From: Chlorobiota bacterium
Lineage (GTDB): Bacteria > Bacteroidota > Ignavibacteria > Kapaibacteriales > NICIL-2
Length of the DNA: 48,895 nt
Direction: 5' to 3'
Assembly: GCA_026416585.1 (NCBI GenBank)
Contig: JAOAEV010000054.1
Span: forward strand, 1-48,895
Shown here: piece by piece, positions 2,967 to 6,123 of the stretch
Layout: every line of letters starts with the position of its first letter
How positions within the stretch are numbered: the first letter of the stretch is position 1
Notes under the pieces: generated by a model
Database searches by the model: none
Told to the model about the DNA's origin: nothing
The model's input: only the letters and a program-made list of their open reading frames with translations
Program-made: the position numbers and the translations under genes

Positions 2967-4514
2967 ATGAATCGTCGAGCGTTTTTGGCATTGGCTCGTA
3001 CAGGTCCTGCCCGCACGGCAGTACCAACAGCATCGATTGCTCCCTATCAGCAACCGCTGACCAGAGACGATGCTCTCCATCTTCTCCGTCGCACAACGTT
3101 CGGTCCAACGCTCGAGTTGGTCGAGCAACTGGTCGGTAAATCCGCGGAAGAGGCTGTTGCACTTCTTCTTGGTAATTCAGCAAGTGAGCCACCTGTTCCG
3201 TCGCCCGGGCAATGGGTCAATCAGGCACAGGAAGACCCCCGCGGAGTGGACATCGTCACCAGGGGACAAATCGAAGCAACATGGCAATCGAACTTCCGAA
3301 ACCTCCAGCAGTGGTGGATCGATCTGATGCGTACCGAGAAGTTTCCAGCCCGAGAGAAACTCACCCTGTTTTGGAGCGGACATTTTACAACCGAGTTTAC
3401 CTACGATCTTGGATACATTCCACCGCAAGTCCTCTACCGACAGAATCTCATGCTCCGACGGATGCGGCTGAGCAATTTTCGCTCGTTCTTGGAAGAGGTC
3501 ACGCTCGACTGTGCCATGCTCGAGTACTTGGGCGGTACGCTCAACGTCGCCGGCAAACCCAATGAAAATTACGCCCGTGAAATGATGGAGCTGTACTCGA
3601 CCGGCATCGGTTGGTACACCGAAGGTGATGTCAAGGAAGCAGCCCGTGTCCTGACTGGATGGAAAGCATCACTCTATAGTGACGCTCCCGCTCCAAACGG
3701 GCTGTTCAACACGTGGTTTAAGCCCAGTGATCACGATATCGGCGCCAAACAGTTCCTTGGACTTTCGATTCCTGCGCGAGATCAAGATACTAACACCGAA
3801 TATCTGGTTCGCACCGGTGAAGTGCGGCGCATGATCGAAATTCTTTTCGGACAACGTGCCGAAGCAATTGCTCGATTCATGGTCGGCAAGCTCTATCGCT
3901 ATTTCGTGTACAGCAATCCCGAGGCAAGTGATGCCGAGGTGCTGGCAGCGCTGATGGATATATTCGTCGCCAACGACTTCGAGCTACGACCGCTCCTGAC
4001 AACGCTTTTGAGTAGCGAGCACTTTTTCGATCCAGCCAACCGCGGCGTTCAGATCAAATCTCCCGCCGACTACGTCGTAGGGCTAGCACGCCAGATGGGA
4101 GTCTCCTTGCCGGGTGCCGCGGACGCATTGGCACGAATGGAACAAGACCTTATTGATCCACCGGACGTTTCCGGCTGGCGCGAATACCGAACGTGGATCA
4201 GCACAAAAACGCTACCACAGCGCGTGCAATACGTCCAACAACTGATCGCATCACTCGCCGACACTCAGGCTCAGGAATTTGTTCGGTCATTCGATAGGTG
4301 GCAGTCCGTTGATTCGTTCGTAGCAGAGCTGACGCGCTTTTTATTACCACGACCAGTTGGTACCAATCGCCTCTCGTACTACACAAGTGTGTTGCTTGCC
4401 GGCGCACCGAACTACGAATGGCCCGCTATCGTCAACAATGCCCAAGCTGTAGGTACACGGCTTCGTGCCCTCTTGCGAACAATCGTCAAAGCGCCTGACT
4501 ATCATTTATGCTAA
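2967..4514 (+). CDS. DUF1800 family exported protein
   Basis: A 515-residue protein of the DUF1800 family, whose biochemical role is unknown. It opens with MNRRAFLALARTG, a twin-arginine-like export signal with a short hydrophobic stretch. Typical DUF1800 segments follow: DALHLLRRTTFGPT near residue 34, FWSGHFTTEF near 136, YLGGTLNVAGKPNENYAREM near 187, and DVSGW near 399. DUF1800 genes are commonly paired with DUF1501 genes, as here: the DUF1501 ATG follows the stop by 19 bases, so the two form an operon. The products probably act together outside the cytoplasm, which is an inference from pairing and signals. Confidence 0.88.
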   Translation: MNRRAFLALARTGPARTAVPTASIAPYQQPLTRDDALHLLRRTTFGPTLELVEQLVGKSAEEAVALLLGNSASEPPVPSPGQWVNQAQEDPRGVDIVTRGQIEATWQSNFRNLQQWWIDLMRTEKFPAREKLTLFWSGHFTTEFTYDLGYIPPQVLYRQNLMLRRMRLSNFRSFLEEVTLDCAMLEYLGGTLNVAGKPNENYAREMMELYSTGIGWYTEGDVKEAARVLTGWKASLYSDAPAPNGLFNTWFKPSDHDIGAKQFLGLSIPARDQDTNTEYLVRTGEVRRMIEILFGQRAEAIARFMVGKLYRYFVYSNPEASDAEVLAALMDIFVANDFELRPLLTTLLSSEHFFDPANRGVQIKSPADYVVGLARQMGVSLPGAADALARMEQDLIDPPDVSGWREYRTWISTKTLPQRVQYVQQLIASLADTQAQEFVRSFDRWQSVDSFVAELTRFLLPRPVGTNRLSYYTSVLLAGAPNYEWPAIVNNAQAVGTRLRALLRTIVKAPDYHLC

Positions 4515-4533: not shown

Positions 4534-6123
4534 ATGCGCCGACGCGATTTTCTCCGTACTGCCGCTGCACTGACAACTACTGCTGCAGCAACGCAGATAG
4601 CCGGATTGCCGGTTCGAGCAAGCTCGCCGCTGCTATCGCTTCCACCACAGGTGATGGAAAGCGACAATGTGCTGGTCATCATCCAGCTATTCGGCGGCAA
4701 TGATGCCCTCAACACAGTAATCCCTGCCGAGGACGATGAGTACTACCGAATCCGTCCAACGCTGGCGATCCCGAAATCACGTGCCTGGCGATGGCTTTCG
4801 ACCGATTTGTACCTTCATCCTTCGCTGGCTGGTAATGGTTTGTTCGGTGGTGGCTTTGGTGGTCTGATGGATCAAGGGCGATTGGCGATCGTCCAGGACG
4901 TCGGCTACGACAATCCAAATCTATCGCATTTTCGATCGACCGATATTTGGCTATCCGGCATCAATTCATCCGATCCGTTTGTACGACTCAACGAAGGATG
5001 GATCGGACGTTACTTTGCACGGGTACTTCCAGACTTCCCGACTGTGCTACCATCACATCCACTCTGTGTGCAAATCGGGGGAACACTGTCGTTGCTGTTT
5101 CAATCGGCAAAAGGCGACGTCGGGATCGCACTGTCGGACCCACAAAAATTCTTTGAACTTGGGCGCGGTTCGACACCGGACGAAGAACCGCTCCCCGAAA
5201 CCGATGCGTTCGCGCGCGAGTTCAACTACGTCCGATCAGTCGCCGCACAAGCCGATCAATATGCGCAAGCAGTGCTCGACGCCTACAATCGCGGGCGAAC
5301 CACTGTGGACTACGGCTCGCGTGGTCTGCCCGCTCAACTCGGCATGATCGCACGGCTGATTTCCGGCGGACTTCGCACGAAAGTTTACCTGTGCTATCTT
5401 GGCGGCTTCGACACTCACGTCCAGCAGCAGGATGCCGATGAGATCACCAACGGCGTACACCCATCACTGCTGGCACAGCTGGCGAACGGTGTAGCGCTTT
5501 TTATGCAGGATGCGCTCCAGCAGGGCTTTGCCCAGCGGGTTGTCGGGATCACCATTTCTGAGTTCGGGCGCCGGCCGTATGAAAATGGCTCGCGAGGCAC
5601 TGACCATGGTGCAGCAGGGGTGCAGTTTGTTTTTGGCGACGGTAACAGTATCCGTTCTTCTCGCTTCGGTACCGCCCCGAACCTCCACGAACTTGACTCC
5701 AATGGCGATTTAATTTATCAGCACGACTACCGTCGCCTGTACGCTGATATTTTGCTCAACTGGTTCGATGCAACGCCAGAAGACACCGCAGCTATTCTCG
5801 GCGATCGCATTGCGCCACTGAACGTCATCAAACGTCGGACGGTAACGAGCACACCACCACTCGAACCAACCGACTCATCGCTGATGATCGTGCCAAATCC
5901 GGTCGGAACAACAGGCGAGCTGCACGTGCATCTCAAACGTTTGGCACCGGTGTCGATAGACGTGTATAATCTCCGCGGTCAATTTGTGGGAGAGGTTTTT
6001 CATGGTATTCTTCCTGAAGGATATTCCCGCTTACCTCTTCCTCCACTACGCGTTGGAAGCTACCTGCTCCAGCTTCAGAGCGGTGATTGCATGCTCCATA
6101 CACGTTTTGTCGTCGGGCAGTAA
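4534..6123 (+). CDS. DUF1501 family protein with Tat signal and probable T9SS sorting domain
   Basis: A 529-residue DUF1501 protein, belonging to the alkaline phosphatase/sulfatase-like superfamily. The ATG at 4534 is preferred over upstream options because it gives MRRRDFLRTAAAL, a good twin-arginine signal followed by an Ala/Thr-rich hydrophobic core. DUF1501 hallmarks include VLVIIQLFGGNDALNTVIP, DQGRLAIVQDVGY, GGFDTH and TISEFGRRPYENGSRGTDHG. The last 80 or so residues (from about IVPNPVGTTGELHVHL, with VDVYNLRGQ-like and GSYLLQL segments) resemble the type A C-terminal domain that directs proteins to type IX secretion. The likely destination is the cell surface. Substrate and activity are unknown. 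Family call is firm; sorting-domain call is by pattern. Confidence 0.9.
   Translation: MRRRDFLRTAAALTTTAAATQIAGLPVRASSPLLSLPPQVMESDNVLVIIQLFGGNDALNTVIPAEDDEYYRIRPTLAIPKSRAWRWLSTDLYLHPSLAGNGLFGGGFGGLMDQGRLAIVQDVGYDNPNLSHFRSTDIWLSGINSSDPFVRLNEGWIGRYFARVLPDFPTVLPSHPLCVQIGGTLSLLFQSAKGDVGIALSDPQKFFELGRGSTPDEEPLPETDAFAREFNYVRSVAAQADQYAQAVLDAYNRGRTTVDYGSRGLPAQLGMIARLISGGLRTKVYLCYLGGFDTHVQQQDADEITNGVHPSLLAQLANGVALFMQDALQQGFAQRVVGITISEFGRRPYENGSRGTDHGAAGVQFVFGDGNSIRSSRFGTAPNLHELDSNGDLIYQHDYRRLYADILLNWFDATPEDTAAILGDRIAPLNVIKRRTVTSTPPLEPTDSSLMIVPNPVGTTGELHVHLKRLAPVSIDVYNLRGQFVGEVFHGILPEGYSRLPLPPLRVGSYLLQLQSGDCMLHTRFVVGQ

Follow-up and report, generated by a model that had tools for sequence, protein, structure and literature searches.

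Can a cargo protein of the type IX machinery (T9SS) cross the inner membrane through the twin-arginine (Tat) translocase? The question is raised by one gene in the window, by which we mean the whole analysed stretch of 48,895 nucleotides (contig JAOAEV010000054.1 of the Chlorobiota bacterium assembly GCA_026416585.1). According to passages of PMC10202324 and PMC12618676, all T9SS effectors carry Sec-dependent signals; the cargo is likewise described as Sec-exported in passages of PMC5445135, PMC9251779 and PMC11285876, and excerpts of reviews state that it exits the cytoplasm unfolded, by a route other than Tat. The initial annotation of this DNA had noted that T9SS cargo is usually thought to be Sec-exported, in agreement with the passages of PMC10202324 and PMC12618676, and had proposed that a Tat-then-T9SS route would deliver a folded, possibly cofactor-loaded enzyme to the surface. 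Neither a Tat-dependent T9SS cargo nor a DUF1501 protein with a C-terminal sorting domain (CTD) was found named in the excerpts of open-access literature searched, a scope outside which most subscription journals lie. The reading we favour, to which we give a probability of about three in four, is that the DUF1501 protein would be a two-signal surface enzyme using Tat and then the T9SS. The features concerned are the following.

4534..6123, + strand: DUF1501 protein, 529 aa, ATG start, with a Tat-type signal, an alkaline-phosphatase-like body and a T9SS type A CTD
4534..4620, + strand: predicted signal peptide of the Tat type (residues 1-29, MRRRDFLR...LPVRA), with its cleavage placed by eye
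4642..5841, + strand: alkaline-phosphatase-superfamily body, about residues 37-436, assigned from fold and conserved residues
5878..6120, + strand: CTD, residues 449-529, seven predicted strands, TIGR04183 at residues 452-527
2967..4514, + strand: DUF1800 protein, 515 aa, presumed partner; RRxFL at the start, hydrophobic core and CTD both lacking

The protein encoded at 4534..6123 was matched by the Pfam profile PF07394 (DUF1501) at 61.4 bits against a gathering score of 27, which places it in the family; with its RRxFLR start and a TIGR04183 score of 24.7 bits over the whole protein, it has the three parts that the initial annotation had read in it, a DUF1501 protein with a Tat signal and a type A sorting domain. 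Its structure as predicted by AlphaFold from 75 sequences had a mean pLDDT of 88.4 and a pTM of 0.79, with pLDDT below 50 at residues 10-36. Structure comparison of the model gave the body (about residues 37-436) an alkaline-phosphatase-like fold, the best match reaching Z 17.7 over 249 residues at 3.5 Å. Both NPP 7mw8 (Z 17.7) and PafA 5too (Z 17.3) of the alkaline-phosphatase superfamily share this fold at 11-12% identity, and the spacing of Asp and His residues in the superfamily presumably differs from that in the DUF1501 body. Six residues (D57, S131, D293, H295, D357 and H358) were invariant both in an alignment of 51 proteins of the order and in a wider alignment of 75 proteins; by fold and order they lie roughly where, as we take it, the superfamily keeps its metal ligands and nucleophile, and on the model they would be candidate active-site residues. 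We infer that the enzyme holds a metal or cofactor and is catalytically active. Many metalloenzymes of the alkaline-phosphatase fold leave by Sec and acquire their metal beyond the cytoplasm, so the presence of a metal would not by itself account for the use of Tat. A sequence search for solved structures gave no trustworthy match to the DUF1501 body, the best of seven at E ≤ 1 being a stathmin-like chain at 0.028; 8glk_D was found with the CTD portion at E 0.23.

For the C-terminus, the initial annotation had named a missing match to the sorting-domain profile as one outcome that would refute it. TIGR04183 (T9SS type A) did match, at 29.6 bits on the tail alone and 29.0 bits in the genome search against a cut-off of 23, while the Pfam CTD profile PF18962 scored 16.4 bits on the whole protein and 21.3 bits on the tail, under its gathering score of 27. 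In the model, seven strands at residues 449-527 of 529, with high pLDDT, formed a C-terminal beta-sandwich. Among the tail's Foldseek matches, 8glk_D (the tail of the substrate NucA within a T9SS complex) stood at rank 24 with probability 1.00, a TM score on target of 0.64 and 20% identity; unrelated Ig-like domains, 4g5a_A and 2p9r_B, ranked above it, so the match supports the fold and does not by itself support a sorting role. G482, which sits between strands 471-479 and 484-493 of the CTD model, was invariant in the 51 homologues of the order and is plausibly the counterpart of the conserved glycine in the motif L-beta3-beta4 described in a passage of PMC11285876.

Machinery for both export steps was found in the source genome (2.06 Mb, a draft of 131 contigs, 97.6% complete). 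TatC was matched at 216.9 bits and TatA/B twice, at 64.2 and 46.5 bits; SprA reached 900.2 bits joined and PorU 755.7 bits. The Tat translocase is present, and so are the T9SS translocon and sortase, together with 46 TIGR04183 matches at E ≤ 0.001. The DUF1501 protein resembles type A cargo such as NucA (8glk_D) in its seven-strand C-terminal Ig-like domain, its proline and glycine landmarks and a host with SprA and PorU, whereas such cargo is Sec-exported as described in passages of PMC10202324 and PMC12618676 and the DUF1501 N-terminus looks Tat-type.

A protein that is exported by Tat and then stays in the periplasm, its tail an Ig-like domain that has lost its sorting role, would fit the PF18962 score under the gathering threshold, the similar quality of the tail's matches to 8glk_D and to unrelated Ig-like domains, and the CTD-less DUF1501 proteins of SprA-bearing genomes (see below), which make a periplasmic DUF1501 viable. 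We nevertheless regard it as very unlikely, given the TIGR04183 score over the cut-off, the invariant G482, the conservation of P454, P456, G496 and G508 of the CTD in at least 90% of the 51 order homologues, and a source genome in which those 46 CTD matches accompany SprA and PorU.

The N-terminus (MRRRDFLRTAAALTTTAAATQIAGLPVRA) carries an RRxFLR motif followed by a weakly hydrophobic core, with a best 12-residue Kyte-Doolittle mean of 1.07 behind the motif. A basic residue stands just ahead of a plausible V-R-A cleavage site, as judged by eye. The protein itself shows the hallmark of a Tat substrate, an RRxFLK-like motif with a weakly hydrophobic core behind it. The Tat profile TIGR01409 scored 18.5 bits in the genome-wide search and 13.8 bits in the whole-protein scan (cut-off 16.7), and the Pfam profile PF10518 scored 13.1 bits, under its gathering score of 22.7. 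Four TIGR01409 matches were found in the source genome at E ≤ 1, the DUF1501 protein being the best and another CTD-bearing DUF1501 protein the second. A third DUF1501 protein (C116) starts with MKRRDFL and has a CTD-like tail that lies outside the TIGR04183 list at E ≤ 0.001.

The signal was set against those of the other CTD proteins of the same genome, a list of 46, of which five were cut and 41 had complete N-termini. Best-start hydrophobicity was 1.38 and 1.48 for the two DUF1501 proteins and averaged 2.65 for the other 39, with a minimum of 1.81. An arginine pair with a hydrophobic pair near a plausible start occurred in 5 of the 41: the two DUF1501 proteins, with weak cores of 1.07 and 1.48; two others with strong, Sec-like cores (2.97 and 2.51); and a borderline case, MCAIRRIFWLM, with a core of 1.76. 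As a separate observation, a CTD protein that by eye resembles PhoD-type phosphatases (C97:203-430, - strand, L103) has a Sec-like signal; PhoD of Bacillus subtilis is reportedly a Tat substrate. The core comparisons bear on the possibility that the DUF1501 protein is ordinary T9SS cargo exported by Sec, its arginine pair being a basic n-region left from a Tat ancestor. The two proteins that join the pair to Sec-like cores show that the pair also occurs on such signals, and T9SS cargo is described as Sec-dependent in excerpts of reviews and papers (PMC10202324, PMC12618676); against this, the DUF1501 core is weaker than that of any of the 39 other CTD proteins.

Conservation within the order bears on the same point. 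Of 61 genomes, 58 gave a match in the protein search, counting the source genome, and RRx[FL] followed the start in all 52 proteins read, again with the source protein among them (30 best matches and 22 chosen by hand). For the order alignment one of these (L046, cut at a contig end, with the arginine pair) was left out. R3 and R4 were invariant in the remaining 51 at identities to the source protein down to 37%, and elsewhere in the signal only M1 and F6 reached 90%, which argues against a mere remnant. The signal cores of these homologues were weak (mean 1.47, SD 0.29). In whole-protein scans at E ≤ 1, TIGR04183 matched 48/51 and TIGR01409 matched 20/51. Read from these alignments, the pairing of the arginine motif with the CTD in DUF1501 is more than chance. 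The same architecture was found in two single-contig genomes of the genus (G004 and G005) and in named isolates. It is these occurrences, with the 51 aligned proteins, that leave next to no room for an assembly artefact, in which a chimaeric ORF would fuse two unrelated pieces, a Tat protein and a CTD, despite the 131-contig draft state of the source genome.

Beyond the order, the 51-protein alignment was used as the query of a wider scan, from which the best 80 of 581 relatives were kept. These included records named Kapaibacterium, Ignavibacteria, Rhodothermia, Cytophagales, Chitinophaga, Saprospiraceae, Flavobacterium, Aquimarina and Marinimicrobia. Named records among the best 80 gave 79 readable N-termini; 71 keep the arginine pair, and the other 8 (L134, L136, L137, L140, L142, L148, L151 and L174) have K, H, A, S or Q in place of the second arginine. 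Chitinophaga filiformis is one of the bacteria with a CTD-bearing DUF1501 gene that keeps the pair. On a tree built from the protein parts behind the signal, these eight fell into two clades with two changes, against a shuffled mean of 7.8 and with none of 500 shuffles as low; signals with R-K and R-H occur in the Spirosoma clade. The wider alignment comprised 74 of the best 80 relatives and the source protein. Left out were L128, L130, L132, L146 and L199, which are cut or masked, and L176, which is complete at 431 aa and has the arginine pair and no CTD; the row of L131 starts four residues late and so lacks the pair in the alignment. At the loose threshold of E ≤ 1, 74 of these 75 proteins matched TIGR04183 and 72 matched PF18962; TIGR01409 matched 18/75 at the same E value in whole-protein scans.

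TatC was found in 48 and SprA in 49 of the 50 genomes holding these relatives (50 of the best 80 loci). Two proteins with the arginine pair came from genomes without a TatC match: G077, which has SprA, and G098, in which SprA is also absent. The idea that the pair is lost where Tat is lost was rejected, because TatC was present in 8/8 genomes in which the second arginine is gone. Either an atypical motif works in these proteins or Sec took over, and Tat is then perhaps not strictly needed; the eight homologues are the further point in favour of Sec export. Two records in this set were unusual. L175 (CP034120.1) is named Glaciecola amylolytica, its genome has SprA (2383 bits) and its DUF1501 protein nests among those of Bacteroidota, and the record name may be wrong. 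L132, from a Desulfobulbaceae MAG contig, is 41% identical to the source protein and is possibly a binning error.

Relatives without a CTD show which of the two signals belongs to the family. A plasmid search returned DUF1501 matches in 25 records, of which eight were read (seven from outside Bacteroidota and one from Persicobacter). All eight had the arginine pair and ended at the end of the body with no CTD, the pair of the Novosphingobium protein lying upstream of the annotated start. Likewise, the pair was present and the CTD absent in 18/18 short Bacteroidota loci, which were picked because they were short among those listed by a search over 148 genomes of the phylum. The tally of 118/148 in that search includes CTD-only matches of other proteins and is not a count of DUF1501. 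In the long Bacteroidota loci a strict pattern of the arginine pair was kept in 25 of 30, three others having RK (L239, L240 and L243) and two an unassigned start (L221 and L246). CTD-less DUF1501 was also considered as a marker of T9SS-free genomes and rejected, as SprA was found in 47 of 48 genomes picked from the phylum listing; among the genomes with short loci, SprA was present in 17 of 18, G112 being the only exception.

Because the CTD-less proteins keep the pair and end at about the end of the body, the Tat signal looks like the older part and the CTD like a later addition: the former would go with the DUF1501 family, and the latter would come and go. DUF1501 would then have been a Tat substrate before it met the T9SS, and T9SS-bearing bacteria would have added the CTD to it. 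The arginine pair in 26/26 CTD-less relatives read, beside its invariance in the order and the weak cores, leads us to consider Sec export of the DUF1501 protein with a leftover basic n-region unlikely. The co-occurrence of the pair and the CTD is real and conserved, and it is probably functional.

Under the two-signal reading that we prefer, the DUF1501 protein would fold in the cytoplasm, its twin-arginine signal would direct it in this state to the Tat translocase for passage over the inner membrane, and the signal peptide would be removed after the crossing, at the putative cleavage site. The T9SS, with SprA as the pore, would recognise the Ig-like type A CTD and move the still-folded protein to the surface, and the CTD would presumably be taken off by PorU. 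The Tat-then-T9SS route of the initial annotation thus stands as the best reading of two signals that recur across the order and beyond, while the cofactor loading attached to it is, for DUF1501, something we infer from the protein. The proposed route is like that of Tat-then-T2SS substrates, in which folded cargo passes Tat at the inner membrane and a second machine at the outer membrane (the T2SS accepts Sec or Tat cargo, according to a passage of PMC9127263), but the second machine differs, being for DUF1501 the T9SS with its CTD signal. If the reading is true, the rule of Sec export and periplasmic folding for all T9SS effectors needs a widely recurring exception in Bacteroidota and relatives, the T9SS could display redox proteins whose cofactors enter solely in the cytoplasm, and the common DUF1800-DUF1501 pair of unassigned function is linked to the cell surface.

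The DUF1800 gene (2967-4514) precedes the DUF1501 gene with 19 bases between them, and a DUF1800 ORF was found at 103 of 110 loci searched. The best hydrophobic stretch averaged 0.42 over 78 complete DUF1800 N-termini versus 1.56 for DUF1501 (74/75 aligned rows). A few DUF1800 proteins have a hydrophobic start (L154, 2.55; L200, 1.68; L144, 1.52), and a loose RR/RK-type motif was seen near the start in 36 of the 78 complete homologues, mostly without a hydrophobic core behind it. All 107 DUF1800 matches stop at the common end of the family with no CTD. The DUF1800 model was confident and mostly helical (pLDDT 93.2, pTM 0.92); its search against the PDB gave no relative at E ≤ 0.001 (best 0.89) and a best second-look Z of 3.7, which is no proof of a new fold.

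Both the twin-arginine motif of DUF1501 and its adjacency to DUF1800 are already published, as a passage of PMC5122149 states. Outside T9SS bacteria, the same neighbour pair with a twin-arginine start on DUF1501 is found both in that paper and among the plasmid proteins read, and DUF1501 lacks the CTD there. By eye, the DUF1800 starts were Sec- or lipoprotein-like in Vibrio, Novosphingobium, Phyllobacterium and Sphingomonas and not in Miltoncostaea, four of the five records with both genes read, in contrast to the DUF1800 of the source genome, which has no hydrophobic core. If DUF1800 is extracellular in Bacteroidota too, it may, as a hypothesis, have to ride out with DUF1501, which would give a second reason for Tat.

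Such carriage would be one case of a general Tat-to-T9SS relay in Bacteroidota and relatives, in which proteins needing a cofactor or partner while still in the cytoplasm (a Rieske protein, a multicopper oxidase, DUF1501 perhaps carrying the signal-less DUF1800) would be folded and loaded, exported by Tat and then displayed at the surface by the T9SS. We put this forward tentatively and with some doubt. A Tat-profile search over 21 genomes of the order returned 62 rows at E ≤ 0.05, and DUF1501 proteins already counted made up 22 of these. From 39 of the other 40 rows and one weaker match of the source genome (C40), 39 proteins were read, one sequence yielding no protein and one (L329) being cut at a contig end. 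A custom CTD profile of 239 nodes, heavily gapped, gave no match on 40 Tat sequences and missed two CTDs seen by NCBIfam, so its negative result carries no weight. Among the matches listed, at least two of the 39 had a CTD-like end.

The first of these, a Rieske protein (L297:187-930, + strand) with the motifs CTHAGC...CPCHGS, scored 23.0 bits with the Tat profile; its tail was matched by TIGR04183 under the cut-off (16.8 bits whole, 19.6 bits tail) and by PF18962 at E 3.8e-4. When it was used as a query against plasmids, 68 records were returned and none covered 80% of the query. The second, a CueO-like multicopper oxidase (L315:227-1945, - strand), scored 18.7 bits with the Tat profile in the genome search and 13.7 bits as a whole protein, and with TIGR04183 23.8 bits whole, just over the cut-off, and 20.5 bits on the tail; the tail of a related oxidase (L316) had no CTD match. 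Judged by these profiles, the two carry the same pair of signals as DUF1501, more weakly. Such iron-sulfur and copper enzymes are well-known substrates of Tat, and for that reason the two, which come from two genomes of the order, offer better support for cofactor-loaded cargo, although each case is a single protein.
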